A stretch of DNA of 47,602 nt from Mogibacterium sp. (GTDB lineage Bacteria > Bacillota > Clostridia > Peptostreptococcales > Anaerovoracaceae). The stretch lies in the NCBI GenBank assembly GCA_017512365.1, contig JAFWGQ010000030.1, positions 1-47,602 of the forward strand. The letters are read 5' to 3'. The position numbers and the translations under genes are program-made. Below, piece by piece: positions 22,070-47,602 of this stretch. The notes beneath the pieces were generated by a model. It made no database searches. It was not told where the DNA came from and worked only from the letters and a program-made list of their open reading frames with translations. Every line of letters starts with the position of its first letter. The stretch's first letter is position 1.

Positions 22070-25000
22070 TCAGGCTGTCAGTTTGACTTTCTTTCCGGCG
22101 TTCTTCTTCGTGAAGATGGTCTTGTACTTCTTCACATAAGTCTTATTGACCTTTTTGCTCCCGACTGCGACCTTGATCTTTGTGATCTTCGAGCCCTTGA
22201 GCGAATTCTTTACGGATGCCTTCTTCAGTTTCTTTGTTTTGACCGTGAGCGTGCCGGCTTTTTTGTACTTCATGAAAGCGCCGCTGCTGATCTTTTTGAC
22301 CTTCCTGCCGAGGACGATCCTGGTAACGTACTTCTCGGAACCTCCGGCCTGTTTGACGGCATTGTCTACAGCCTTTGCGTTCACTGTGGCGGCATTGACA
22401 GTCACGGTACTGACCTTCTGTGCCCTGGCTTCAGCTTCTGCCGCTCTGTCTGCAGCTTCTCTTTCTGCAGCCGCTCTTTCAGCTGCCTCCCTGTCGGTTG
22501 CCGCTTTGTCTGCCTTCTCTTTGTCTTCTTTGGCCTTTTCTGCAGTGCTTGCGGCATTCTTTGCATCCGTCACAGCCGTAGCAGCTGCGGCCGCAGCTGC
22601 TGCGGCATCACTTGCTGCCTGTTTGGCATCTTTTGTTTCCTGTGCATCTGTTCCGTAGGCTTTTTCTGCTGCCGCCGCATATGCGTCTGCTGCCTCTTTA
22701 TATGCGTCTGCCGCCAGTTTTGCCGCTGATGCATCAAACTGAGCTTTCTTTGCAGCATCTATCGCCGCCTGGCCTGGTGTCTTTGCAGCTTCCTCAGCAG
22801 CAACTTTGCTTTCATCTGCTTTCTGCTTTGCAGCATCTGCGACTGTCTTCGCAGAATCAGCCGCTTTCTTTGCAGCATCTGCAGCTATCACATCTGCGCT
22901 GGAGACATATTCTTTCTTAGTCTGGGTCTCAAAAGCATCCTTTTGGAATACCGCTGTATAAGTTCTCTCGCCGGGGGCCTCATCGGTTGGAGGTGTCGTA
23001 ATTTCGGACGTTGAGTTCACAGTCTCCGTATCCTTTCCAGTGCAGCCTTCATGGCCGCAGGTTCTGGTTGCTGTACAGGTGCTGTTGTCATCTGCCCAGG
23101 AGTAGCTTGCAGGGCCCCATGCATGACCAAGAGGATTTACATCTTCTATTTCTTTTGTACCCGTCGCTATGCCTTCTTTTGTGAATGTTGCCGTATATGT
23201 CGTTTTTCCTTTTGCATCGCAGGTCGGTTGCTGAGTGACATCTGATGTTATGGTCCCGTCCTCGGAATCCGTTGCATTACAGCCATTCCTTGTGCAGTTC
23301 CTCGCTGCTGTGCACGCGCTGCCGTCATCTGCCCAGGAATAACTGACAGTGCCCCATGCATGACCGGCTGCAGGATCGACATTACCATTTTCAATTACTG
23401 TCTTACAGTCGTTGCAATACCTGTCTCCTGTATATCCGTCATTCTCACAATCCGGAGTGACTTTGTTTTTGATCTCTACAGAAGAGTCAGGGTGGAGGCA
23501 TTCTTTACGGGTTATTTTGATTGTCTTAGTTTCATGGATGTAATTGCCTGCACCGTTTCCGGTGTATTTTGCATCAAACGAATTCACGCCGATATTGAGA
23601 CTCTTTCCGATATCATTCGAATCGAACGCCCATCCCTCTGCAGCTGCAAGGATCTTGTTATCAAGTGTTTTAGTCAGATATGGAACAGTATAAGCATCAT
23701 CAGGCACTGCCGGCGGATATTCTGCCTTATGTATTACGAATGCAGGAGATACACTCCCGGCAAAGTTACCCTGTCCGGTAATGTTCAGACTATATGTGCC
23801 GGCATTGACAGCTTCATCACATGTGACTGTATAGTCAGTTCCCAGGACCAGATCGTTATTGCCGTATCTGCCCGCGACCTCAGGAGTCTGAGCTTTTCCG
23901 TTATATACAAGCCCGGAATCATCGACAGTGAACATGTCTGCAGCTAACTGCAGCGGACTTATTTCAAAGTTCGCTTTACACGAACCGGCATAGTTGCCCT
24001 TGCCGGTGATGTTTGCGGCCGCAGTACCTGCTTCAGTATTCTTCTCGTATGCAACTGTATAGTCAGTATTGGCCGTCAGAGTCTTTCCTTTCTTTGTGAC
24101 AGTTACATCAGGCCTTTTGGCCGTTCCGTCATAAGTGAAAGAACCACTCACTGTCGCAGTTGCATCATCTATGGATACTGGTTTGACTGTCAGCGAAACA
24201 CTCTTTGAAACAGAGTTGTCAAGATCAGAAGTCACTGTCACAGCAGTTGTTCCGGCTTTCTTCGCCGTAATATTCTTTCCCGAAACAGATGCTATACTGC
24301 TATCGGTGATATCTATTGAATAGCCTCCTCCCACTGTCACATAATATGGACCTTTTGAAACAGCACCGTCAGTCCAGCTAAGATTGAACTCTTTCGGCCA
24401 TGTTTCACCAAGTCTGATAACTGAACTCGCTCCGCTGAATGCTTGTGTGTCTCCATAAACCATTTCGAATGAATCAGCATCAGTTTCAATGCCTACATGC
24501 TCGATCTTGCTGCTGAGTACATCTATCGGCAATGTAGTCTCGCTGTCATCCGCCTCTGTCTGAGTAAGTCCGTATGTATCATTTCTGTATCCGAATTCCT
24601 GTACCCAGTAATGGATCTGAGTCTTGTAAGGGTAGTCTCTGTCGCCTTCAGTCAGATTGCCTGAATAGTTAACTACTACATGCGCGATCCCTATACGGTT
24701 ATATCCACGCCCGAGCATATTGCGGCGATGCCCCTGTCCGCCATAAGGATAGCCGGTTTCGCTCCATGAATTAAATGCTTTCAGTGCAGTGTTGGTTCTA
24801 TCTCCATATCCGGCAGCTATATTTTCTCCCATGGCAGAGTAGCCATTGGGAAAAATCGAATAACAAGACTGTCCGTCCGGCCTCTGATGGTCGAACTGTA
24901 ATATGAGCTCCATTGCACGCTTTTTTGCCACTTTCTCGAGCTCGTAATCATACTGCAGTTCGCTCAAATTGGCATATGACGCAGTATCGATATTCCCCTG

Positions 25001-25225
25001 AGAATCATAAGCCCACACTGTGCTCTGCCCACCGTCAGTGATCCTTCCGGTTCTGAAATCATTTACAAGGCTCAGCATGCTTCTTGCCTCAGTTTGTCCA
25101 TAAGTACCCGTAACATCAACACTGACTGTATCAGCCGCAGATGCTGTTCCTGTCATTGCTATTACAAGCAGGGCAGCTATAATCACTGCCGTCAGGCCGC
25201 TTTTTCTCGAAGTGCACTTCATCAT
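22070..25225 (-). CDS. large secreted CAP-domain protein with Ig-like, repeat and Ala-rich helical regions
   Basis: The 1051-residue protein has a signal peptide (about 1-30, ending TASA). A CAP/SCP domain (about 45-215) shows GENIAAGYG, SWSETGYPYGGQGHRRNMLG and HYWVQEFGY. Ig-like Big_2 and MBG-type repeats (about 285-500) include GKGNYAGS and GQGNFAGS. Two Cys-containing repeats (about 590-750) carry GHAWG..SYSWADD. An Ala/Lys/Asp-rich segment (about 765-930) is probably an extended helix, and a very basic C-terminus includes KISSGAF and BspA-like KLKKASVKNSL. There is no LPXTG anchor, so it is secreted or held by charge. CAP proteins of bacteria are mostly of unknown function. Two GTTACA boxes 11 bp apart lie about 100 bases upstream. 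Confidence 0.85.
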   Translation of the reverse strand: MMKCTSRKSGLTAVIIAALLVIAMTGTASAADTVSVDVTGTYGQTEARSMLSLVNDFRTGRITDGGQSTVWAYDSQGNIDTASYANLSELQYDYELEKVAKKRAMELILQFDHQRPDGQSCYSIFPNGYSAMGENIAAGYGDRTNTALKAFNSWSETGYPYGGQGHRRNMLGRGYNRIGIAHVVVNYSGNLTEGDRDYPYKTQIHYWVQEFGYRNDTYGLTQTEADDSETTLPIDVLSSKIEHVGIETDADSFEMVYGDTQAFSGASSVIRLGETWPKEFNLSWTDGAVSKGPYYVTVGGGYSIDITDSSIASVSGKNITAKKAGTTAVTVTSDLDNSVSKSVSLTVKPVSIDDATATVSGSFTYDGTAKRPDVTVTKKGKTLTANTDYTVAYEKNTEAGTAAANITGKGNYAGSCKANFEISPLQLAADMFTVDDSGLVYNGKAQTPEVAGRYGNNDLVLGTDYTVTCDEAVNAGTYSLNITGQGNFAGSVSPAFVIHKAEYPPAVPDDAYTVPYLTKTLDNKILAAAEGWAFDSNDIGKSLNIGVNSFDAKYTGNGAGNYIHETKTIKITRKECLHPDSSVEIKNKVTPDCENDGYTGDRYCNDCKTVIENGNVDPAAGHAWGTVSYSWADDGSACTAARNCTRNGCNATDSEDGTITSDVTQQPTCDAKGKTTYTATFTKEGIATGTKEIEDVNPLGHAWGPASYSWADDNSTCTATRTCGHEGCTGKDTETVNSTSEITTPPTDEAPGERTYTAVFQKDAFETQTKKEYVSSADVIAADAAKKAADSAKTVADAAKQKADESKVAAEEAAKTPGQAAIDAAKKAQFDASAAKLAADAYKEAADAYAAAAEKAYGTDAQETKDAKQAASDAAAAAAAAATAVTDAKNAASTAEKAKEDKEKADKAATDREAAERAAAEREAADRAAEAEARAQKVSTVTVNAATVNAKAVDNAVKQAGGSEKYVTRIVLGRKVKKISSGAFMKYKKAGTLTVKTKKLKKASVKNSLKGSKITKIKVAVGSKKVNKTYVKKYKTIFTKKNAGKKVKLTA

Positions 25226-25321: not shown

Positions 25322-25338
25322 TGTAACCGTTCTGTAAC
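25322..25338 (-). promoter_or_regulatory. two GTTACA boxes, 11-bp period, upstream of the CAP gene
   Basis: On the minus (coding) strand GTTACA occurs at 25333-25338 and 25322-25327, exactly 11 bp apart, in a 313-base gap. A TTTAAA stretch lies just upstream and a 10-bp palindrome AGTTTAAACT just downstream (25294-25303). The arrangement resembles half of the four-box array in front of the giant surface-protein gene at 43906. I did not find a convincing -35/-10 pair at ideal spacing. Confidence 0.45.
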
Positions 25339-32788: not shown

Positions 32789-33478
32789 ATGGCAGACAAA
32801 GTCCTGGTAGTGGATGACGATAAAGCGATACTGACGATGCTCCACAAAGCGCTCAAGAACAACGGTATCGAGAACGATCTCGCCATCAGCGGCGAGGCGG
32901 CCCTCGAGCTGCTTGAGGTCAACGAATACGACCTTATCCTGCTGGATATCAACATGAGAGGCATAAACGGCTTCGAGGTCATACAGCGCATAAGAGCAAA
33001 GGGCCTCACCACGCCGGTCATGGTCGTAAGCGGACGCAAGGAGGATCAGGACGCTCTGTACGGTCTCGAGATCGGCGCCGACGACTACATCATCAAGCCT
33101 TTCAATCCGGTCACTCTGGTCGCGAAGGCCAAGGCCCTCATCAGGAGGAGCCGCGAAGCCTCGCCTCAGAGCAGGAGCAACATCATCGAGGCCGGACCGT
33201 TCACCTACAACACATCGACTCTGAGGTTCTACAAGAACGACGTCGAGATCCCTCTGTCGGCCAAGGAGAATTCCATGATCAAGCTCTTTATCGACAACGT
33301 GGACCACATCTTCTCCAAGGACATGATATACAGCGTCATCTGGGGAGAGACCATCATCGACGAGAACGCCATCATGGTATATGTCAACAGGCTCCGCCAG
33401 AAGATCGAGGACGATCCGTCGAATCCTAAGTACCTGATCACGGTACGCGGACTCGGATACAGATTCACAGTCCAGTAG
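32789..33478 (+). CDS. OmpR/PhoB-family response regulator
   Basis: The start is the ATG at 32789 with GAGGAGGAAG just upstream; the frame is open further back, but that stretch is not coding. The 229-residue protein has a receiver domain (1-120) with the acidic pair DDD near residue 10, phosphorylation site LLDINMRG (about Asp53) and KPF (about Lys103). A winged-helix DNA-binding domain follows (about 135-229) with MVYVNRLRQKIE and the ending YLITVRGLGYRF. Such regulators bind direct repeats at promoters with roughly helical-turn spacing. The divergent kinase is the presumed phosphodonor. A terminator hairpin follows. Confidence 0.93.
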   Translation: MADKVLVVDDDKAILTMLHKALKNNGIENDLAISGEAALELLEVNEYDLILLDINMRGINGFEVIQRIRAKGLTTPVMVVSGRKEDQDALYGLEIGADDYIIKPFNPVTLVAKAKALIRRSREASPQSRSNIIEAGPFTYNTSTLRFYKNDVEIPLSAKENSMIKLFIDNVDHIFSKDMIYSVIWGETIIDENAIMVYVNRLRQKIEDDPSNPKYLITVRGLGYRFTVQ

Positions 33479-36727: not shown

Positions 36728-38035
36728 TCATTTGTTCCCGTTCTGATTTGCAGGAGGCCTGATAGTAACGATAGCGGTCGTCTTTCTGCCCGGCGAACTG
36801 GTTATCGTCAGCTCTCCTCCGACCTCGAGGCGTATCCTCTCACGCACGTTTGCCAGGCCTTCGTGTGTTACGTCCATGTCCCTGAGCTGCTTTACATCGA
36901 AGCCGACGCCGTCGTCTATGATCCGTATCTGCGATCCTCCGTCGGAGAGCCACCTGGATACTATCCTGACGGTGCCGCCTTCCTCCTTAGGCGCGATGCC
37001 GTGCTTGACGGCGTTTTCGACGAGCGGCTGTATCGACAGAGGCGGCACGAGGAAGTCCTCGGCCTCGATATCGTATTCCACAGTCAGTCTTTTGCCGAAG
37101 CGCAGCTTTTCCAGTTCGAGATAATGTCTTATCTCGCCGAGCTCCCACGAGAAGTTCACGAGTTCCTGCTTTTCCATGGTCTCGAGAGTGCTCCTCAGGT
37201 ACTCGGAGAAGGTTCCTATCGCCCTCTGGGCCTTCTGCGGATCGCTCTCGCAGAGATAATATATGGTCGTCAGCACATTGTAAAGGTAATGCGGCTTCAT
37301 CCTGCCCGTCGCGAGAGCGAGCCTCGCCCTGGTATCCGCCATTTCATCGTGTTCGGCCTGCATTGCCACATCCAGGTAATGCTGGGTGTAGATGATGCAG
37401 AACTCGATGACGATCAGAGGATAATACAGATCTACGCCGTACGCATATGGTTCCGCGAATGTCGCGATGAGCATCAGCAGCGGCATGGCGCTCAGTATGA
37501 GCGTGTGGCGTATGCCGATAGTTCTGTAGTACTTTATCAGGATAGCAAGAGTGATCAGTATGAGTATGAGTCCGCCAATCTGTCCTATCCTGAACGAGAC
37601 TCCGAGCCTGAGCGTGGAATCGCTTATCCTTTCAAAATCCTCATCTACCGTGGAAATGACCCAGAGCGTGGAGCCGATGACGCATACCACAAGCGAGATA
37701 TACACTACCGCCCTGTTCACCGGATGCGCGGGGTCGAGCTCTTCTATCTGCGCTCTGAGGTACTCAATATATAAATAGAAAACAATATAAACGCCTACAT
37801 GCGACAGCGAAAGGAGCACCACATTCAGCGGGTCTCTCAGTTCCATGCCGCGCATGCAGCAGCCCACATGGCAGAGCATGCAGACCGTCGCGACCGCGAT
37901 CTTCGAAAAGAACAGCCGCTGTGAGCGGTTGCTGAGCATGTCACTGCGGAAGCTCGTCATCATCGCGATCGCCACCAGGCTGCTGTAGCCCATGAGCGCT
38001 ATATTAACAGATCTGACTAATATCTCACTGGCCAT
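36728..38035 (-). CDS. LytS-type sensor histidine kinase
   Basis: I chose the ATG at 38035, with AAGGGAAAGC upstream and an 11-base overlap with the regulator gene; the frame extends further back but that part is the regulator's shadow. The 435-residue protein has seven or so membrane segments in its first 215 residues. A His_kinase (PF06580) core follows with the H-box GRMKPHYLYNVLTTIYYL, then an ATPase domain with PLVENAVKHGI and DDGVGFD. Kinases of this class usually signal to LytTR regulators; here the partner is a REC-SARP protein. The signal is unknown, but the multi-pass sensor suggests a membrane or peptide cue. Confidence 0.9.
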   Translation of the reverse strand: MASEILVRSVNIALMGYSSLVAIAMMTSFRSDMLSNRSQRLFFSKIAVATVCMLCHVGCCMRGMELRDPLNVVLLSLSHVGVYIVFYLYIEYLRAQIEELDPAHPVNRAVVYISLVVCVIGSTLWVISTVDEDFERISDSTLRLGVSFRIGQIGGLILILITLAILIKYYRTIGIRHTLILSAMPLLMLIATFAEPYAYGVDLYYPLIVIEFCIIYTQHYLDVAMQAEHDEMADTRARLALATGRMKPHYLYNVLTTIYYLCESDPQKAQRAIGTFSEYLRSTLETMEKQELVNFSWELGEIRHYLELEKLRFGKRLTVEYDIEAEDFLVPPLSIQPLVENAVKHGIAPKEEGGTVRIVSRWLSDGGSQIRIIDDGVGFDVKQLRDMDVTHEGLANVRERIRLEVGGELTITSSPGRKTTAIVTIRPPANQNGNK

Positions 38036-38819
38036 TGCTTTCCCTTGACTCCAGACTTCCGTGCGTGACTTCGGACCAGCTGTACTGCTGCATGTACTCG
38101 CCGTGATATGAATTGATGCCCTTCGCGTCTCCCGCAAGGTAGTCGAAGAAGTCGCACTTGACCTTGGCAGGGATGACTCCGATGCCGCCGCGCATGATGA
38201 CTATGGCATCCTCCGCGCCGACTCCCTTCAGGGTATCCACGAGGTCCTTCCTGAGCTGCTTGATGTAGCTGGTGCGGTCCTCGTCATCGTCCCAGAGGAT
38301 AGCCCTGATCTCGCCTATGTCCACTACCGCGCAGTTGCGGTCGATGAGGTATGCCAGCAGTTCCTTGGTCTTGGCATACTTGAAGTGCAGAGGCTTGCCG
38401 TCGAAGAAGACCTCGAAATTGCCGAAGGCCTGTACCCGGAGTCCCCTGTCATCGTTCTCGACCGGATGCCTCAGATCATCTATCTCTGTCATGACCTTTT
38501 CGCGGTTGAGAGGCTTAGTTATGTATCCGCTGGCGTGCAGGCTGAAAGCATCGCCGGCATACTGAGGATAAGCCGTCGAGAAAATAATATTGGTGTCAGG
38601 CGCGATCTTCTTGATCTTCTTGGCAAGCTCGACTCCGTTCATGCCCGGCATCTCTATGTCGAGGAAGGCTATGTCGAAGTGTCTTTTTTCGACCTCTTCA
38701 AGAGCCTCGGACGGAGTGCCGCATACCACCATGTCCGAGTTAGGGATGCAATCCGCGATGACTTTCGCGGCTCCGTCTCTGATGACCTGTTCGTCGTCTA
38801 CTACAAGTACTCTGATCAT
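38025..38819 (-). CDS. response regulator with receiver and SARP-like DNA-binding domain
   Basis: The 264-residue protein has a receiver domain (1-118) with VVDDEQ, phosphorylation site FLDIEMPG (about Asp54), and KPLN. An OmpR/SARP-type winged helix follows (about 128-225), recognisable from VQAFGNFEVFFDGKPLHFKYAKTKELLAYLIDR and the TSYIKQLRKDL recognition-helix region. A short tail lacks the large BTAD repeats of Streptomyces activators. SARP-type domains bind direct repeats 11 bp apart. Such repeats lie in front of the surface-protein genes nearby, and two imperfect boxes lie over its own promoter. It is the first gene of a compact run with the LytS kinase. Confidence 0.88.
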   Translation of the reverse strand: MIRVLVVDDEQVIRDGAAKVIADCIPNSDMVVCGTPSEALEEVEKRHFDIAFLDIEMPGMNGVELAKKIKKIAPDTNIIFSTAYPQYAGDAFSLHASGYITKPLNREKVMTEIDDLRHPVENDDRGLRVQAFGNFEVFFDGKPLHFKYAKTKELLAYLIDRNCAVVDIGEIRAILWDDDEDRTSYIKQLRKDLVDTLKGVGAEDAIVIMRGGIGVIPAKVKCDFFDYLAGDAKGINSYHGEYMQQYSWSEVTHGSLESRESNGQ

Positions 38820-38833
38820 GTCTCCACTCTTTC

Positions 38834-38889
38834 GTTATAAAACAGTTACATTTATGCTTATTATATTTGCAACTCCTGCAGTATTTCAA
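38834..38889 (-). promoter_or_regulatory. promoter of the REC-SARP/LytS operon with possible autoregulatory boxes
   Basis: On the minus strand TTGAAA (38884-38889), an 18-bp spacer and TATAAT (38860-38865) make a good promoter, start near 38853. On the plus strand GTTACA (38845-38850) and GTTATA (38834-38839) lie 11 bp apart around the start site. If a regulator binds there it should block rather than help this promoter. The promoter is well supported; the boxes are an inference from spacing. Confidence 0.7.
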
Positions 38890-38944: not shown

Positions 38945-39000
38945 TGTAACCCTTCTGTCTCCCTATCCTAACCGTCGTGTGTCTGTGCCGTTGCTATACT
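38945..39000 (+). promoter_or_regulatory. promoter of the small CAP gene with degenerate 11-bp repeats
   Basis: TATACT (38995-39000) is a good -10, but the -35 position has no TTGACA-like sequence. Upstream, TGTAAC (38945), TGTCTC (38956), CCTAAC (38967) and TGTGTC (38978) follow at exactly 11-bp steps, spanning about -62 to -24. A missing -35 with boxes at this place is what an activator-dependent promoter looks like. The repeats are imperfect, so this is tentative. Confidence 0.4.
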
Positions 39001-39063: not shown

Positions 39064-39801
39064 ATGAAGACTATCAGAAGACTGGCGGTCGTGCTCACAG
39101 CCATACTGATCATTGCTCTCGCGGCGGTGACGGCAAGCGCGGCCGATTCTCATGTTACTTCCGTAGACATAAACAAAGACAGCGTTTCGATGAAAGCCGG
39201 CGCAAAGACAGGCCTCAGGATATCCTACAGCTATCAGGGCGAAAAGCCGGACACGAACGACATCCACTGGAGCAGCTCCAACGACGCCGTAGTCACAGTC
39301 AGCAACGGCACAGTCACAGCAAAAAAAGCAGGCACCGCAGAAGTGACCGTTGAATTCGAAGGCGAGACCGATTCCTGCACGATAAGCGTCAGCGCCCAGA
39401 AGCCGGCAGTCGTGAATACATCGCAGGCATACAGGCAGCTCAACAACTACCGCAGCCAGTACAACCAGCACGTGAAAAAGAGCTCCGGCAAGCTCGTGCC
39501 GCTCAAAAGAGACAGGAAGCTCGAAAAGATAGCTCTGATCCGCGCAAAGGAAATGGCTGAGACAGGAAAGTTCTCGCACACACGTCCGAACGGCAGGAGG
39601 GGCATCACCCTCGTCAAGGGCAACAAGGCCAAGGGCGAAAACATCGCCAGAGGACAGGAAACATGCGCTCAGGTCTCCGAAGCGTGGTACGCTTCCACAG
39701 GACACAGAGCAAACATGCTGAGAAAAAACTTCAGAAAGGTCGGCATCGCAGGGTACACCTACAACGGAACGACCTACTGGGCACAGATATACTCCTCTTA
39801 A
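39064..39801 (+). CDS. secreted CAP-domain protein with Big_2 Ig-like domain
   Basis: The 245-residue protein has a signal peptide (1-27, ending ASA), a Big_2 Ig-like domain (about 32-112, with WSSSNDAVVTVSNGTVTAKKAGTAEV) and a CAP/SCP domain (about 120-245). The CAP part shows FSHTRPNGRRG, GENIARGQ and AWYASTGHRANMLRKNF, close to the YkwD type. It should be secreted or wall-associated; function is unknown, though CAP proteins are common in the cell envelope of Firmicutes. Strong AAGAGGTAC-type site before the ATG. It is the reverse domain order of the large CAP protein at 22070, where the CAP domain comes first. Confidence 0.88.
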   Translation: MKTIRRLAVVLTAILIIALAAVTASAADSHVTSVDINKDSVSMKAGAKTGLRISYSYQGEKPDTNDIHWSSSNDAVVTVSNGTVTAKKAGTAEVTVEFEGETDSCTISVSAQKPAVVNTSQAYRQLNNYRSQYNQHVKKSSGKLVPLKRDRKLEKIALIRAKEMAETGKFSHTRPNGRRGITLVKGNKAKGENIARGQETCAQVSEAWYASTGHRANMLRKNFRKVGIAGYTYNGTTYWAQIYSS

Positions 39802-39931: not shown

Positions 39932-42900
39932 TTACTGCAGATCGCGTCTGCGTCTTGCTGCCATGATGATCAGCGAAAGAATGATAGCTGCAATCATGAT
40001 CCCGATATATGCGATGAGCCTTGTCTCATCTCCTGTCTTTACTCCACTGGATGCTGCCGGCTGCGAAGTTTCAGCTGTCCTGACGATGTCGGCGGAGCCT
40101 GCTTCGTTATCGTCCGTTCCGTCATCCTCGTAGTCTCCGAGTACATCGCTGTCTGCTGTATCCGTCGGAGCCACGATCCCGTTCTTTACCTCAGGCAGTT
40201 CTTCCCATACAGCGTAGAGGTCGTTTTCCCACCTGCCCGCCGCCGCGAGCTCATCCGGGAAGAAGTAGTCGCGTCCGGCCGATCTGACGTAGAGCCTCTC
40301 TCCTCCTGCACTGGTCCAGCAGACGAACTTATATGTCCTGCCGTCAAAGGCATATGTGTCGCTCCAGCCTGTATCCTTTATCGCCAGCACCCTGAACCAT
40401 TGGTTTACCTCCAGAGGCTCCGTTTCGAAGGTCCTGTTTTCTTCTCCTGCCGGATAATTCGTATGGTAGACTACAGTCGTATTCTGCTTATACGTTTCAT
40501 ATTTCGCTACGAGCGTGATCACATTGTCGCTTTTGCCGTCCGCACTGTCATTAACGTCGCTGACCCTGAAGGTGGAGCCTGTTATGAGCTTATCCTTTTC
40601 GGTTCCGACAGCCCAGCCGATGAAGCGGCTGTTTTTGCCTTCTCCAGGCTTTGCGCTGCCGACCGTCTTCGCGTCAGAGTCTCTGCGGTAGGCCTTCGGA
40701 TCCATGCCATCCACAAGGCCCTCAGGCAGAGTGCCGCCGTTCGCGTCATAGCGCACCTTATAGATATCTGTCGGCTCCCATACGGCTTTCAGGCGGTAGT
40801 TTTTCATTATCCTGGTGCTGAAGTCGAACCTGCTGACCGGCTTTCCCTCGTCATCACATTCATACCAGCCCCTGAATTCAAGTTCTTCGTTTTTAAGTTC
40901 CTCTGCACCCGGAAGGTTTTCGTACCCCTTCGTTCTTCCGTTTGCAGGGATGTCTGAGTCTGTAAGCACCGGATCTCCGTTGTCCGGATCATAGTCGACC
41001 CTGAATTTTTCCGGCGTCCACCTGTAATAGACTATCAGATCGCTGCTCGGCATTTTTTCCGGCATAGATCTAAGCTTTTTGCCCGACTTCGTATTATATA
41101 TCTCGATACCGTCGAAATCATAGCGGATGCCGTTTTTATCCTTGATCACATTCCACTTGCCTCCGGAAGGCTGCACTTCTGCGGCAGCATCAGTAGATTC
41201 TCCGAAGAGGACTTTGTGCTGCTGATCGGCTTCTTTGCAATCGTCGGCTATGTCCACCGCGCCGGCCTTCACCTGCACGTAAGTGATCGTGTATTCCGCA
41301 GGATACCAGTGGCATATCATCGGGAGCGGCTCGCCATCTTCGTACAGATATGCGAACTTTGTCTGTCCGTTTGACTGGAGTTCAGCATCAAGTTTCTTAT
41401 AACTGCCTGAGCTTTCATCGAACGGTCCCGTGACCTCTTTCAGCTCATATCCGCCCACGACCGAGCCGATCCTGAATTCGTGCTTTCGAGGCGACCGGTA
41501 ATTGATCGTGATCGGAGGATCATTTTCATCCACCTTTTTCCCGGCAGCATCATAGTAGATGTCTTTGATCTGGTGCGCCTTTTGACTGGAATTGTATTTG
41601 ACCAGTATCAGGCAGTCCGTCCCGTCAGCTGTGTCTTCTGCCGGGCGGAACGGATTATACATGTTGGACGCGTTGAACACCACCTGCTGTCCGGATGATC
41701 CGCGATACACCGCGTCGAACCACCAGTGAGTTCCCTCATCCAGCAGCTTCCGGATCCTCGGATTGTTGCCATAGGCCTTCGCATACATCCACTCGCCGTA
41801 CTTCAGCACCTGATCGCTCTGACCTGTGATCCAGTCTGTACCCATGAGAGTCCTGTAGTCATTATAGGCTGTCCGGTTCCTTTCCTTTGACAGCTGCGTG
41901 CCGCCGTTATATCCGTTTACCGGCATATTGTCCTTAGACAACTCCGGATCGAAGCGGAAGAACAGCTGGTAGCTGTCCAGGCTGTAGTAGACCTTTACAA
42001 CGGTATCCCTGTCCGCTATCACAGCCTTCGTGGAGTCGCCTTCGATGCATTCCCCGTTGTGATCGAATGCCGCGGCCTTTTTCCCTCCGTGATACACCTC
42101 GATGGCAGGGCAGCTGTCCTTGAATCCCGGTTTATCCTGTTTCGCGCCGGTCCCGTTCAGATGATAGTGATCGCTGCTGTACTTGTTCTTTCCATACTGA
42201 GCGAGTATAGCGCTGACCGGGATCGGGTTGCCTGTCTTAAGGGCGATCCCGTTGTTCGATGTCCACACGCTGTGCTCTTTTTCCGTATAGCTGTCGTTCT
42301 GCGCGTTCTCACGCATCACGCTGAGGATGAAAGAGTTCTCCGCCTCTTCCCATCCGGCGTAGAGGACAAGTTCGTTCTCCACGACATCGTTCTCAAGCCA
42401 TTTCTGCGAGTCATCATCCGCCGCTTCATCGCGGTACCACCCGGTGAAGCTATATCCCGCCCTGACAGGAACGTCGCTGAAATCGATCTTATCTCCATAC
42501 CGGACGCTGAGCGTAAGCGCTTCGCTTCCGGCAGCCTCGCCATTCTCATCCGCTGTTTTGAACTCTCCGCCGTTGGCATCGAGTGTCACTTTGAGATCAT
42601 CCCTGAAGACAGGCACGAGGTGGATGTCTGCGCCATTCACTTCGACGGCTGCTCCGGCGATGATATCTGTATCTGTCTTATCTTTCTCTCTCCATCCGAT
42701 AAAGCTCTGTCCCTCCGGAACGAGGCCCATATTTTCGAATTCTTCTTTTGTGATCAGCTCAACGACTCCTTTGTCAGCCGCTCTGGTCATGCAGACGGTC
42801 CCGGCATCACTGCTGGTATAGAAGATCCCATGCCAGCAGTCGAACGCCTTTACTACGTCGATAGTCTTATCCTCTGTCGCATCCTCAGGGACCATCGTGT

Positions 42901-43906
42901 CATTCGTGACCTCATCGCCGGTAGCTTTATCCACCCATCTGAATTTCTCACTGTCTTCCACTTCAGGAAGTATGACCTTTTCTCCCTGCTTTACGATCTG
43001 AGTGCTTACAGGTTTTTCTTCATCATAGAATACATATGTATAGCGTACGTTCCTGCTGATATCATCTGCATATTCCGTGCCGGTTATGCCGTAAACAGTG
43101 AAGTGATCCGTCCTGAATGATGCGGAGCTCGCCGAAGCATCGGACATGACGGAAACGCTGCCGCCGTCGCTGACCGTGACTGCCTCATGGCTGTCTCCCG
43201 CAAGCGCGCGCTTCGCGGAAAGCTTCACACTGACGCTGCGCTTCGGCTGTATCTCCTTGCCTTCATTCCAGAAGGTGATGTCGGCAGCAGCGGCATCGAC
43301 TACCTCGGTGCCCTCATCTGCCATCTTCTGCGCAGCTTCCTTTACTTCCTCTGCAGAAGCTCCGCGCACCTTCATCTGCGTTCCATCAGGGAACACTCCC
43401 TTCCCGGCGCTGACACTTATATCCAGTTCGGAAGTCGATCCGCTGAAATCCTGAGCAGGATATTTCTCCTCCTCGTCCTTCCTGTCCTTATCTGCATCTT
43501 CGGTGTCCGCGTCCTTTTCCGTGTCTGCCGCCTTGTCCGCTGACGTGACTGCAGGGTCCGCGTCCACATCCGACGGAGAAGGAGCTTCTTCATTATTGAC
43601 CGTCTGCGTATCCGACGGGCTCGCAGACTCAGGCTCAGGTTCCGGTTCAGGCTCCGGCGCCGGCTCAGGCTCCGCTGCGGCCGGTTCAGGAGAGGATACC
43701 TCTTCCGCACTATCTTCTTCAGCTGCCGGAGCTGCCGCTTCCTCTGTACTGAAAGCAGCATCCTCGGCTGCGTCTTCCGCAAAAGCATAAAAAGAAGGAG
43801 CTATGCCCGACAATATCATCATGAATGAAAGCATCATGACCATGATCACCTTAGGCATTCTGCCCCCTGAAGCCGCACGGCTCAGCCAGTCGCTCTTTTT
43901 CTTCAC
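39932..43906 (-). CDS. giant surface protein with Listeria-Bacteroides (InlB-type) repeats
   Basis: The 1324-residue protein has a long signal peptide (about 18-42), a Pro/Glu-rich stretch (EPEPAPEPEPEPEPE) and an acidic region ending YPAQDFSGS. A domain shared with the neighbouring paralogue follows (GKGVFPDGTQMKV ... HFTVYGITGTEYADD). Several Flg_new/InlB-type repeats come next, for example GYSFTGWYRDEA...LYAGW and RFIGWAVGTEKDK. The C-terminus has SDVLGDYEDD, then VKTGD, a hydrophobic helix and RRRRDLQ, an atypical sortase signal with TGD but no LPXTG. It should be exposed on the wall; adhesion is plausible but unproven. Translation probably begins at GTG (43904-43906) after GGGGGG. Confidence 0.88.
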   Translation of the reverse strand: MKKKSDWLSRAASGGRMPKVIMVMMLSFMMILSGIAPSFYAFAEDAAEDAAFSTEEAAAPAAEEDSAEEVSSPEPAAAEPEPAPEPEPEPEPESASPSDTQTVNNEEAPSPSDVDADPAVTSADKAADTEKDADTEDADKDRKDEEEKYPAQDFSGSTSELDISVSAGKGVFPDGTQMKVRGASAEEVKEAAQKMADEGTEVVDAAAADITFWNEGKEIQPKRSVSVKLSAKRALAGDSHEAVTVSDGGSVSVMSDASASSASFRTDHFTVYGITGTEYADDISRNVRYTYVFYDEEKPVSTQIVKQGEKVILPEVEDSEKFRWVDKATGDEVTNDTMVPEDATEDKTIDVVKAFDCWHGIFYTSSDAGTVCMTRAADKGVVELITKEEFENMGLVPEGQSFIGWREKDKTDTDIIAGAAVEVNGADIHLVPVFRDDLKVTLDANGGEFKTADENGEAAGSEALTLSVRYGDKIDFSDVPVRAGYSFTGWYRDEAADDDSQKWLENDVVENELVLYAGWEEAENSFILSVMRENAQNDSYTEKEHSVWTSNNGIALKTGNPIPVSAILAQYGKNKYSSDHYHLNGTGAKQDKPGFKDSCPAIEVYHGGKKAAAFDHNGECIEGDSTKAVIADRDTVVKVYYSLDSYQLFFRFDPELSKDNMPVNGYNGGTQLSKERNRTAYNDYRTLMGTDWITGQSDQVLKYGEWMYAKAYGNNPRIRKLLDEGTHWWFDAVYRGSSGQQVVFNASNMYNPFRPAEDTADGTDCLILVKYNSSQKAHQIKDIYYDAAGKKVDENDPPITINYRSPRKHEFRIGSVVGGYELKEVTGPFDESSGSYKKLDAELQSNGQTKFAYLYEDGEPLPMICHWYPAEYTITYVQVKAGAVDIADDCKEADQQHKVLFGESTDAAAEVQPSGGKWNVIKDKNGIRYDFDGIEIYNTKSGKKLRSMPEKMPSSDLIVYYRWTPEKFRVDYDPDNGDPVLTDSDIPANGRTKGYENLPGAEELKNEELEFRGWYECDDEGKPVSRFDFSTRIMKNYRLKAVWEPTDIYKVRYDANGGTLPEGLVDGMDPKAYRRDSDAKTVGSAKPGEGKNSRFIGWAVGTEKDKLITGSTFRVSDVNDSADGKSDNVITLVAKYETYKQNTTVVYHTNYPAGEENRTFETEPLEVNQWFRVLAIKDTGWSDTYAFDGRTYKFVCWTSAGGERLYVRSAGRDYFFPDELAAAGRWENDLYAVWEELPEVKNGIVAPTDTADSDVLGDYEDDGTDDNEAGSADIVRTAETSQPAASSGVKTGDETRLIAYIGIMIAAIILSLIIMAARRRRDLQ

Positions 43907-43930: not shown

Positions 43931-43981
43931 AAGATATGAAATTGTAACCTTGTTGTAACTTTTCTGTAACCGTTTTGTAAC
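43931..43981 (-). promoter_or_regulatory. promoter with four perfect GTTACA boxes at 11-bp steps
   Basis: On the minus (coding) strand GTTACA occurs at 43976-43981, 43965-43970, 43954-43959 and 43943-43948, each exactly 11 bp from the next. TATCTT (43931-43936) is a likely -10, and the third box from the upstream end sits 17 bp before it in place of a -35. Four direct repeats on one face of the helix overlapping -35 are typical of operators for PhoB/PhoP/SARP-type winged-helix regulators. Confidence 0.75.
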
Positions 43982-44052
43982 TTACCATATTCGCAGATCA
44001 TTGTCAATACGATGTCAGTATTTTGTTCAGCCGCCCTATGTTTTTTTCTGTA

Positions 44053-44125: not shown

Positions 44126-47100
44126 CTACCTCCCGTTCCTTCTTCTGATAACGATGATCGAGATACCGGCCGCTGCCATGATCATCAGAGCCGCGAGGTA
44201 TGTGATCACCGCCTGATCTCCTGTAGCGATCCCGCCGGATCCGGCTTTTACACCTTTTTTGACTTCCGCGGCTTTATTTTTGCTGCCCTCGTCATAATCT
44301 CCGAGGACATCAGAGCTGCCGTCGTCCGTATCCGGTACAAGCTCTTCAGTGACTGCGCGAGGCACTATCTTCAGCCAGCCGTCGGTGACAGTATCGATGA
44401 CCGCTTCCTTTATCCTGCCGCTCTGCGAGTCTTCTATCACGCAGGTGAAGTGCTCTTTTGTCAGGTCCATCGGATATCCCGCCTCATTCACCTCCGTTCC
44501 CCTCGCAACGGCCTGCCTGCCGTCCGCAAGAGCGACCGTGACACCGTCAGGCGCGTTGCTCTTAAAGCCGCTGACGCTCTTCTCGGTGCCGTCATATGTC
44601 TCTGTCGCAGTATTTCCGCTTATGCTCACCTTGAGCCTCCACATCGCGTAAAGGTGGTTTTCGCCCTGCATGTTCGCGGCGGCCTTCTCTCCCGCATTGA
44701 AGTACTCGCCCGATCCGTTCCTCCAGCAGATGAACTCATAGCCGGCATGCTCCTGGTCGAGTTTTGTCAGCCTCTGATACTCCTCCACCCTGAATTCATC
44801 GTTGAACGTCACCGGTTCTTTCGATTCAGCCGCGTCGCCGGACGGAAGATTCGAATGATAGGTCACCTTCGTCGTGGCCTTCTGTTCATACTGCGCCGTC
44901 AGAACGAGAGTATATCGCCCTTTTGTATTGTTTTCCGCATACCTCCCGTTCACAGGGAATATCCCTGTGTGTACGAGGCGCTCGCTCGTCCCGATCTTCC
45001 AGCCCTTGAAGTACCAGCCGTCCTTCAGATCCTTTTCATCAAGCGCCGGCATTCCGGCCACTCTTGCTTCCGCGCCGTCAACATATATCTTTTTGTCACT
45101 GCCTGCAAACTTTGCTCTGCTGCCGACTTCTCCGTTACTGTATTCATATCTGATGGTGATCTCCATCTCTGTCGACGGGCTCCACTTTGCCCTGAGAGCG
45201 GTGTCCTTCATGATAAGAGTATCGAAGCTGAAGAGGCTGCCGTCTTCCTTTACCCATCCCTCAAAGATGTGGCCGTCCATTTTCATCTCGCCTTCAGGCG
45301 CATCTATCTGTCTGCCGGATTCCACTTTGATGTCTGCAAGTGTCTTCTTCCCGCCGCAGCTGCCTCCGTCCAGATCGAAAGTTACTTTGTATTCAGGCGC
45401 GACCCATTTTGCGAACAGCTGCAGATTGTTGGCCGGCATCGTCGTGCTCGGGTCGAACGGGATCTGGAATCCGTCATCCAGGTACCAGCCGCCGAACGTG
45501 TATCGTGTGCCGTCACTCATCATGTATGCCGGAGGCTCCAGTCCCTTTCCGTCCATAGGAATATCTTTGGTGCCGATCGTCTCCTTGAACTTTCTGCTGA
45601 AAGACCTGCTTTCGGATATGTTTGAAAGCGTGACCGAATAGTCCCGGCGCTTGTAGTAGATCGAAATGCCCTTAGGCTGGATCCTTACGGAACCGGAAGG
45701 AATGTCGATCATGTCGCCTCCTCCGTCCGCGTCATTCCTGTAACCGGCGAGTTTATAGCCATTGAATTTTTCCGAAAAATTCCAGTTGACATTCGCTGAA
45801 TTAGCGTTGGTTTCCAGCACTGACTGATACCCGCCTTCGGAATCCTCCAGCCACAGAACTATCCTGTAGCCCGCCGGAGTTCCGGCCTTCTTCAGACTGT
45901 ACAGATTGCCCGCATACGGGAAGATGAACGCGTCCAGGAAGGTCTGGAATGTGTTGGTTCCGTCCGTGTGCTGCCAAACTATCCCCGTAGGCCACTCATA
46001 GCCATTGTGTCTCAGAGAAGATCCGTACAGTCCGGTAAACTCCCTGGCTAGAATCTCGTTTTCATAGAATTGCAGCGTCATCAGCTCGCGGTCATAATAC
46101 ACGTTGTAAACGGTACTGCCGTCAGCCTTTACTTTGACGTCCTTGTTCGCTGCGTCGGTCTTCAGGGTGTTTTTTATAAAGTACGGATACGACTTGTCTT
46201 CGAACGTCCCCGTCGAGCCTGCTTCTCCGGTCAGCGTTACCGACTCCGCGAAGTCGTATGTCCTGTCAGCCGGCACAGCATTCTTGGCATCCGTCACCCT
46301 CTGCCTCCAGTACACTACGGTATAGCTTGCCGATCTGTCCGGGATCCAGCCCGCATAGAGCCTGATGTCATCATCTATGGCCTTTTCGAAACTGAACTTC
46401 TTCGTACGCTCTTCATCAGTGTACCACGCGTCGAATCCATAACCGTATCTCGTCGGTTCCTCAGGCGCTGAGGCCTTGTGACCGGTCTTTACGACTATCG
46501 GATCCACCGGTGTGCCGCCGCCGGATTCAAAGGTGATCCAGCTTGCGGATTCGATCACAGGCTGCAGATCGATGTCTGCGCCGTCAACCCTGACATGATC
46601 GCTTTCCAGAAGCTTTCCGTTATGTTTCCAGCCGGTGATCCCCATCCCGTCTCCGAGGTAACGGTTCACATCTTTCGTACTCACGATGTCTCCGTTCACG
46701 ACCTTCTTAGTGCGCAGGACGACAGTCATCGCTTCATCCTTGTAGAAGGTTACATAATATGTATTTGTGAACTCGGCATAAACAGCGAGCTCCCTGCCGT
46801 CTGTTCCCTCATCAACGCCGACCGGTTCTCCGAACGCGATTTTTTTGCCATCCAGAAACCACCCGTCGAACACCTTGCCATTGGTCGAAGCCGGTGCCGC
46901 CGGCTCAACGAGAGTATCGCCGTCCGAGACTGTCTGAGTGTCGACAAGTCTGTTCCCTCCGTTCTCCCTGACATAGAACCTGTATGTATTACGTGCTTTC
47001 TGTTCCACATCGTTTCCGTATTCTTCTCCGATTATGCCGTAGACGGAGAAATGGCCTGCGCTGAAGCTTGCCGCTTTCGCGGACGCGTCGCCTATGATCT

Positions 47101-47602
47101 CCGCTCTGCCTCCCGAAGCAATATGGACCACCTCGTGTTCGTCTCCGGCAAGCGCCTTGTCCGAGCTCAGTCTGACGCTTACGCCGCCCTGCGCGGGCTG
47201 TATCTCTTTGCCTTCATGATGGAAGGTGATGTCAGCAGCGACAGCATCGACCACGGATAGATCATCCCCTGTAGCCGCGTCGGCCGCAGATATGACATAC
47301 GAAGAAGAGACCTGGCTGACGCTCATCTCTGTGCCTTCCGGGAAAACGCCCTTACCGGCGGATGCTTTTACATTGAGTCCGCCTGCGCTCCCGCTGAAGC
47401 TCTGAGCAGGATAATCATCCTTCTCGTCATCTTTGTTTTTATCTTCATCTTCCGTGTCCGCGTCCTTTTCCGCAGCTGACGCTTTGTCCGTTGATATGAA
47501 TGCAGGATCTGCATCCGCATCCGACGGAGAAGGATCGTCTTCATTATTATTATTGACCGTCTGCGTATCTGCCGGACTCTCGGCCTCAGGCGTCGGTTCC
47601 GG
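44126..47602 (-). CDS. giant surface protein paralogue, 5' end beyond window
   Basis: The reading frame is open from its stop at 44126 to the window edge (1158 residues visible; the in-frame ATG at 47326 is internal, since the homologous N-terminal region continues past it). The visible start is Pro/Glu-rich and acidic (ESPADTQTVNNNNEDDPSPSD...), then YPAQSFSGS and GKGVFPEGTEM, closely matching the gene at 39932. InlB/Flg_new repeats follow (GYGFDAWYTDEE...LYAGW, FGGWYLDDGF..., HIFEGWVKEDGS). The C-terminus has SDVLGDYDEG, then GIATGD, a hydrophobic helix and RRRNGR: again a TGD-type sorting signal without LPXTG. It is probably a sortase substrate. The signal peptide should lie just outside. 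Confidence 0.88.
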   Translation of the reverse strand, partial: PEPTPEAESPADTQTVNNNNEDDPSPSDADADPAFISTDKASAAEKDADTEDEDKNKDDEKDDYPAQSFSGSAGGLNVKASAGKGVFPEGTEMSVSQVSSSYVISAADAATGDDLSVVDAVAADITFHHEGKEIQPAQGGVSVRLSSDKALAGDEHEVVHIASGGRAEIIGDASAKAASFSAGHFSVYGIIGEEYGNDVEQKARNTYRFYVRENGGNRLVDTQTVSDGDTLVEPAAPASTNGKVFDGWFLDGKKIAFGEPVGVDEGTDGRELAVYAEFTNTYYVTFYKDEAMTVVLRTKKVVNGDIVSTKDVNRYLGDGMGITGWKHNGKLLESDHVRVDGADIDLQPVIESASWITFESGGGTPVDPIVVKTGHKASAPEEPTRYGYGFDAWYTDEERTKKFSFEKAIDDDIRLYAGWIPDRSASYTVVYWRQRVTDAKNAVPADRTYDFAESVTLTGEAGSTGTFEDKSYPYFIKNTLKTDAANKDVKVKADGSTVYNVYYDRELMTLQFYENEILAREFTGLYGSSLRHNGYEWPTGIVWQHTDGTNTFQTFLDAFIFPYAGNLYSLKKAGTPAGYRIVLWLEDSEGGYQSVLETNANSANVNWNFSEKFNGYKLAGYRNDADGGGDMIDIPSGSVRIQPKGISIYYKRRDYSVTLSNISESRSFSRKFKETIGTKDIPMDGKGLEPPAYMMSDGTRYTFGGWYLDDGFQIPFDPSTTMPANNLQLFAKWVAPEYKVTFDLDGGSCGGKKTLADIKVESGRQIDAPEGEMKMDGHIFEGWVKEDGSLFSFDTLIMKDTALRAKWSPSTEMEITIRYEYSNGEVGSRAKFAGSDKKIYVDGAEARVAGMPALDEKDLKDGWYFKGWKIGTSERLVHTGIFPVNGRYAENNTKGRYTLVLTAQYEQKATTKVTYHSNLPSGDAAESKEPVTFNDEFRVEEYQRLTKLDQEHAGYEFICWRNGSGEYFNAGEKAAANMQGENHLYAMWRLKVSISGNTATETYDGTEKSVSGFKSNAPDGVTVALADGRQAVARGTEVNEAGYPMDLTKEHFTCVIEDSQSGRIKEAVIDTVTDGWLKIVPRAVTEELVPDTDDGSSDVLGDYDEGSKNKAAEVKKGVKAGSGGIATGDQAVITYLAALMIMAAAGISIIVIRRRNGR

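Follow-up and report, generated by a model that had tools for sequence, protein, structure and literature searches.

GTTACA box arrays in Mogibacterium sp. as candidate operators of a SARP-like response regulator with giant surface proteins among its predicted targets

Introduction

The binding sites of SARP regulators are repeats 11 or 22 bp apart, the last of which lies 8 bp from the -10 hexamer, according to part of the account in PMC10936776. Portions of PMC4415409 describe PhoB/PhoP operators as multi-unit sites built of 11-nt direct repeat units that are bound head to tail and that serve either activation or repression. For WalR/VicR, portions of PMC4168254 and PMC9210968 describe activation from upstream sites and repression where the sites cover the promoter and +1.

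Here we describe an array of four GTTACA boxes in Mogibacterium sp., on a contig of 47,602 nucleotides (JAFWGQ010000030.1, assembly GCA_017512365.1) that was analysed as a whole and is referred to as the window; the genome is a 2.46-Mb draft, 92.9% complete and 6.94% contaminated. The initial annotation had likened these boxes to B. subtilis PhoP boxes and to SARP sites, and this is partly supported: the boxes are 11-bp repeats and the candidate reader is SARP-like, its fold being nearer to SARPs than to PhoB/PhoP. In SARP terms, the repeats are 11 bp apart; in the arrays beside the regulator gene described below, the end of the hexamer is 11 bp from the -10, a distance that shrinks to 6 bp when each unit is counted as 11 bp starting at TGTAAC, and so depends on where the unit ends. 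In contrast to AfsR and EmbR, the regulator proposed here has an N-terminal receiver, a cognate kinase and an apparently shortened BTA region, and it comes with many repressor-type sites, surface-protein targets and a Firmicutes-type host. It shares with the PHO box system a response regulator, 11-nt direct repeats and multi-unit operators, whereas the box sequence differs and its match to Trans_reg_C reaches only E 0.016; no pst/pho gene was noticed among the N-termini of the targets, part of which were run against family libraries. The WalR/VicR sites (TGTWAH-N5-TGTWAH) are similar in word, spacing and envelope-type targets, whereas the arrays described here run to six or more units, carry an added AA-N-R constraint, and are distributed with another regulator.

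The four-box array

The array (43943-43981, minus strand) contains GTTACA at 43943, 43954, 43965 and 43976 with a period of exactly 11 bp, confirming the spacing first reported. Written (GTTACA-N5)x4 it lies in the sense of the gene that follows, its plus-strand reading is TGTAAC x4, and it forms three overlapping exact GTTACA-N5-GTTACA pairs (43943-43959, 43954-43970 and 43965-43981, all on the minus strand). The window has nine box pairs with at most two mismatches, against a mean of 1.35 and a maximum of 4 in 100 dinucleotide-preserving shuffles. The array had been called the strongest operator-like signal in the window, and it is the best by a matrix derived from the sites, scoring 47.2 where the next best arrays score 31.8 and 24.5; shuffles (five sequences, 10 each) gave zero arrays scoring 20 or more.

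The GTG start codon of a gene for a 1324-residue surface protein (39932-43906, minus) lies 36 nt past the end of the array, and the product has an N-terminal hydrophobic segment, List_Bact/Flg_new repeats and a C-terminal hydrophobic segment (by eye). Upstream of this gene is another very large open frame (44126-47326, minus), which runs to the window end and has its promoter outside the window or near its end. There are two predicted promoters for the 1324-residue protein gene. A perfect TTGACA (44002-44007, minus) is a predicted -35, separated by 17 bp from TAAGTT (43979-43984), the corresponding -10, which overlaps box 1, the first box in the sense of the gene; this promoter would place the array over the -10 and +1. 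TAAGTT is a poor -10 and begins just 3 bp before box 1, and the array thus falls outside the set of 24 of 40 arrays defined by an upstream -10 below. The alternative, used in the initial annotation, takes TATCTT (43931-43936, minus) as a predicted -10 and the box at 43954 (box 2 in plus-strand order) as its -35.

A candidate regulator and its kinase

Two regulators encoded in the window had been named as possible readers, and only one of them tracks the boxes. This is a 264-residue response regulator (38025-38819, minus), composed of a receiver (Response_reg, E 8.7e-24) followed by a SARP-like winged helix and a short helical tail. Its D54 and K102 are invariant in 27 aligned sequences, 26 of them full-length or nearly so from other records. 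A full-length fold search (TM about 0.4) had spoken against a SARP-like protein, and was overturned when the C-terminal part was folded alone, giving a SARP-like, OmpR-type winged-helix DNA-binding domain. The fold match reaches only residue 174 of EmbR and residue 182 of AfsR, whereupon the protein ends, and the C-terminal 140 residues have no Pfam BTAD match; as modelled, the DNA-binding portion has a SARP-like fold, and the BTA region after it appears shortened. The closest named records, at 76-77% identity, are from uncultured Clostridiales and Mogibacterium sp. Relatives at E 1e-40 or better occur in 70 of 349 family genomes, and among the matches listed in open-licence literature no operator or regulon is reported for any of them, which is weak evidence that none has been described. 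The overlapping gene (36728-38038, minus) encodes a sensor kinase (His_kinase and HATPase, membrane part by eye) that is the probable partner, and which we take to be LytS-type from its His_kinase domain; its open frame begins at 38137 and its start is placed at about 38038.

The other named regulator, an OmpR-type response regulator (32789-33478, plus), was rejected as reader; its ortholog (at least 74% identity) is near genus-wide, in about 37 of 47 genomes (one partial), and does not track the boxes.

Distribution of the boxes

The genome scan for GTTACA-N5-GTTACA proposed in the initial annotation returned eight exact pairs in the window's own genome and none for the reversed pattern. Exact pairs occur in 15 of the 47 genus genomes, with 6-10 in each of six (G000, G016, G027, G029, G031 and G039) and one or two in nine others. 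Orthologs of the 38025-38819 regulator (at least 76% identity, the next best match being at 43%) are present in eight of the 47, namely these six together with G007 and G041, such that all six genomes with at least three exact pairs carry one. A strict motif (GTTACARNAMRGTTACA) is found in 15 of 349 family genomes, comprising eight of the nine carriers (32 matches) and seven of the 340 others (one match each; Fisher P 1e-11, uncorrected for kinship). A refined motif (GTTAYAVAANRGTTAYA) occurs 2 to 11 times in each of the eight genus carriers and in three of the 39 other genomes, with one match overall for the reversed control; G005 has one match inside a gene, G033 one after a gene end, G020 has 13 copies in a dispersed repeat, and the other 36 have none. 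Both motifs were learned from the genus carriers, and the fair test is provided by G208, G041 and the non-carriers. In G208, a carrier from another genus, 14 pairs match with one mismatch or none, four of them exactly, against four in the control, and arrays are present. Over 100 half-sites of exact pairs a purine invariably precedes GTTACA, with A-A-N favoured before that, and the spacers of 54 distinct exact pairs are close to [AGC]AAN[AG].

Within the genus, rich box sets are confined to genomes with the regulator ortholog, and there is no exact pair in G040, G042 and G044, which are near the window's genome by tree and lack the ortholog. This bears on whether the boxes instead belong to WalR (YycF) or to a PhoP-type regulator common to Firmicutes, an improbable reading to which TGTAAC-N5-TGTAAC conforms exactly in its WalR/VicR consensus and for which the cell-envelope type of the targets also speaks. 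All 47 genus genomes have YycF-like matches, none of which exceeds the curated cut-off, however, whereas rich box sets occur in six and the refined motif in the eight carriers, quite apart from the three ortholog-free relatives.

The carrier label, placed on a tree of 36 OmpR genes from 36 genomes, changes twice, with G208 extra. There are thus two or three independent contrasts, and another clade-specific factor could yield the same pattern. With so few contrasts, a different regulator of the same patchy distribution might read the boxes, which we judge about as improbable as WalR; arrays lie beside the 38025-38819 gene in five carriers, pairs lie in its own promoter in two, and its domain type is known from part of PMC10936776 to read 11-bp direct repeats, all of which argue for the 38025-38819 protein. 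G041 carries the regulator and has zero exact pairs; its site at a PepSY-type gene persists as GTTATA-AAAAA-GTTATA, and its regulator is the sole ortholog of nine changed in SYIKQLRKDL (L to I). A link between this change and the drifted site is a suggestion and no more.

The ten exact pairs of ortholog-free genus genomes were all inspected, with at least four lying inside long open frames and no target class in common; exported-looking open frames lie 317 bp from the pair at L104 and 81 bp from that at L106. The one-mismatch hits of G020, considered as promoters, were rejected: among 14 in the inspected loci, 13 are one dispersed repeat and one is a similar site in L173. In the 13 near-identical copies (L161-L172), GTTACAGAACGGTTATA follows the end of a gene and adjoins a terminator-like hairpin (GCAAATAGGGG..CCCCTATTTGC or similar). 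G020 lacks a regulator ortholog, and the stretch is either a dispersed repeat or a gene end present in several copies.

Arrays of other words at 11-bp period number four in 79 loci with regulator relatives, versus none in shuffles; the genes beside them are not of one kind and the arrays are not attributable. Four-unit direct repeats of this sort are seen at L027:1604, L039:1153 and L049:2931, at loci where the regulator has distant relatives, and the last unit at L039 ends 11 bp before a TATAAT.

Two promoter layouts

A set of 61 arrays, 40 in GTTACA sense and 21 in TGTAAC sense, was curated with genes assigned by hand and promoters not looked at, and orthologs were collapsed only for family-level counts. 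Arrays that lay within genes or had no clear gene (L186, L202, L205, L230 at 3527, L237 and L240), a contig-end duplicate (L239) and secondary arrays (L182 at 2513, L195 at 6489 and L196 at 16) were dropped; L228 and L241 are plausible GTTACA-sense arrays left unused, and L180 is out where a start codon is needed, as the contig ends.

The GTTACA-sense arrays tend to lie between a promoter and its gene. The -10 of the best two-hexamer promoter starts 8-20 bp upstream in 24 of 40 (mean 5.7 and maximum 11 in 100 sets of shuffled flanks), and an earlier cut of the promoter scan placed a -10 ending 0-20 bp upstream in 24 of 36 clusters (40 shuffles, mean 5.2, maximum 10). The distance from array end to start codon, a median of 30.5 nt in these arrays, is 45 nt or less in 29/40 (19/28 families), compared with 1/20 in TGTAAC sense (1/15 families). 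The TGTAAC-sense arrays have their best -10 exactly 11, 22 or 33 bp past the last detected box in 11 of 21 (1000 shuffles, mean 1.38, maximum 6), or 5 of 15 when one is taken per promoter family (mean 1.00, with at least five in 10 of 2000 shuffles); the other ten are not at these distances. The mean -35 score of ten phase-locked TGTAAC-sense arrays with a measured start is -3.8, which is poor, versus 5.4 for the 24, a contrast inflated by the selection of the 24, in which the -35 itself played a part.

GTTACA-sense arrays show no such phase downstream (5/40, near the expected 3 in 45) or on the antisense side (3/40). This weighs against activation of the 1324-residue protein gene by the same regulator, with the box at 43954 as -35 and TATCTT as -10. 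Such an activating promoter is possible: the box is 17 bp from TATCTT, the upstream -10 is poor, and SARP activators bind -35-overlapping repeats (in part of PMC10936776) as this SARP-like regulator might. We nonetheless regard it as unlikely, as the perfect TTGACA lies upstream, GTTACA-sense arrays have no preferred downstream -10, and most end so near the start codon that scant promoter space is left. The original statement that the array overlaps a -35 is an interpretation: box 2 is 17 bp from TATCTT, but by the promoter with the upstream TTGACA the array would cover the -10 and +1. By its sense and start-codon distance, the array is most likely a repression site.

The GTTACA-sense arrays lie mostly between the -10 and the start codon, where the repeats could also act in RNA, as 5'-leader elements bound by an RNA-binding protein. 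This is very improbable, as 21 of the 61 curated arrays are opposite in sense, 11 of them upstream of a -10 at fixed phase.

Sense and layout are not strictly tied, because four TGTAAC-sense sites (38834, L184, L189 and L229) may sit downstream of a -10. The PepSY promoter could also be read as activated in GTTACA sense, with TAAAAC at +11, kept in G041.

Predicted targets

Among 60 curated targets, 46 are exported-looking, compared with 77 of 306 neighbouring open frames from the same loci (eight genomes), where exported-looking denotes an N-terminal hydrophobic segment with at most two more, a heuristic applied without collapsing orthologs. Proteins of at least 900 residues make up 21 of the 60 and 11 of the 306 others. 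The remaining curated targets are a soluble histidine-kinase core, a receiver-HD protein, a DUF4003 protein, a polytopic membrane protein, one unassigned protein and the regulator itself. The boxes, their spacing, the target classes and the co-occurrence with the regulator are all read directly from sequence.

Outside the window, exact pairs of the same genome lie upstream of exported-looking proteins of 1394 residues (weak fn3 match), 1331 residues (Flg_new, MBG) and 302 residues (fn3), and of a small PepSY protein. Within it, an exact pair (25322-25338, minus) in the sense of its gene, with TTGCAA-N17-TATGCT ending 7 bp upstream, precedes a predicted target encoding a 1051-residue exported protein with a CAP domain (22070-25225, minus). 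A degenerate four-unit array (38945-38983, minus), with TGTAAC toward the CAP gene, lies between the regulator gene and a divergent gene for a 245-residue exported Big_2 and CAP protein (39064-39801, plus), a predicted activated target. It ends 11 bp before TATACT (38995-39000), and comparable arrays are found in the same place in four other genomes. These intergenic arrays have 4-6 units in G000, G007, G027, G029 and G039, five of the nine carriers, and the last unit (in G007 a degenerate one counted by eye) lies 11 bp before TATACT, TATACT, TAAACT, TATAGT and TATACT respectively. Strong and weak boxes alternate in G027 and G039, a pattern that would suit a 22-bp unit bound by a head-to-tail dimer. 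No regulator-adjacent array was found in the fetched stretches of G016 (where the contig start is close), G031 and G041, and G208 has a weak pair.

A one-mismatch pair (38834-38850, plus) separates the start codon of the regulator gene from TATAAT (38860-38865) and is a predicted autorepression site. One-mismatch pairs in the regulator's own promoter occur in G000 and G007, whereas five of nine carriers lack any pair there within 100 nt. A surface gene located near the regulator gene of G007 carries two box pairs, one of them within a TATAAT promoter and the other 12 bp past it, and its product is weakly like the 1324-residue protein (29.5% over 88 residues).

Several further features adjoin box pairs. 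Soluble histidine-kinase cores like that of the regulator's kinase (by eye) lie under box pairs at L187:388-1047, L185:272-916 and L206, where feedback is possible. Two exported-protein genes of the window's genome (L017:6395-6540 and L018:6215-6360) share CCCACTTTCGTGC, TTCATGCA and TGTAAC-N5-TGTAACCAAAGTAGAAT at near-equal spacing, a second conserved promoter element adjoining the boxes. Surface-gene promoters at L182, L192, L208 and L234 have a GTTGAAATTTCAATG-like stretch immediately upstream of the box pair, with a membrane histidine-kinase gene divergent in several. A one-mismatch pair lies upstream of a pilin-like gene of the same genome (L022:6121-6137).

Discussion

We consider it reasonably probable that the array is a cooperative operator of the 38025-38819 response regulator, and that this is a dual regulator that represses the 1324-residue surface protein; its binding, its phosphorylation and the direction of regulation are what we infer. 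The regulator would be paired with the adjoining kinase (36728-38038), and its SARP-like winged helices would bind head to tail, one per 11-bp unit of consensus A-A-N-R-GTTACA. Where there is no -35, TGTAAC points toward the gene and the array ends 11, 22 or 33 bp before the -10, the regulator would replace the -35 and activate as SARPs do, with the neighbouring CAP gene as the clearest case. Where the promoter has a good -35 and the array follows its -10, ahead of the start codon, RNA polymerase would be blocked and the gene repressed. The window's array is of the repressor kind and therefore most likely represses the 1324-residue surface protein, and the regulator may repress itself via 38834-38850.

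A broader proposal is more tentative, and we put it at somewhat less than even. The regulator may be of an undescribed kind, combining a receiver, a SARP-like winged helix with shortened BTA region and a LytS-type kinase, that acts as a reciprocal surface-coat switch in which repeat placement codes the effect. Small secreted proteins of the CAP type, together with a membrane protein, would be activated by TGTAAC-sense arrays set at whole helical turns from the -10. Arrays between the -10 and the start codon would repress both giant surface proteins and proteins with an accessory role in signalling (a soluble kinase, an HD-GYP protein and the regulator).

The regulator now has a predicted operator, a list of predicted targets and a proposed rule that would set the sign of regulation. 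The four boxes are part of a common set of landing sites, a regulon whose reader is probably one signal-responsive regulator that would turn giant surface proteins off and other secreted proteins on. This makes testable both whether a SARP-like domain can repress and how a bacterium of this kind replaces giant surface proteins with other exported ones.
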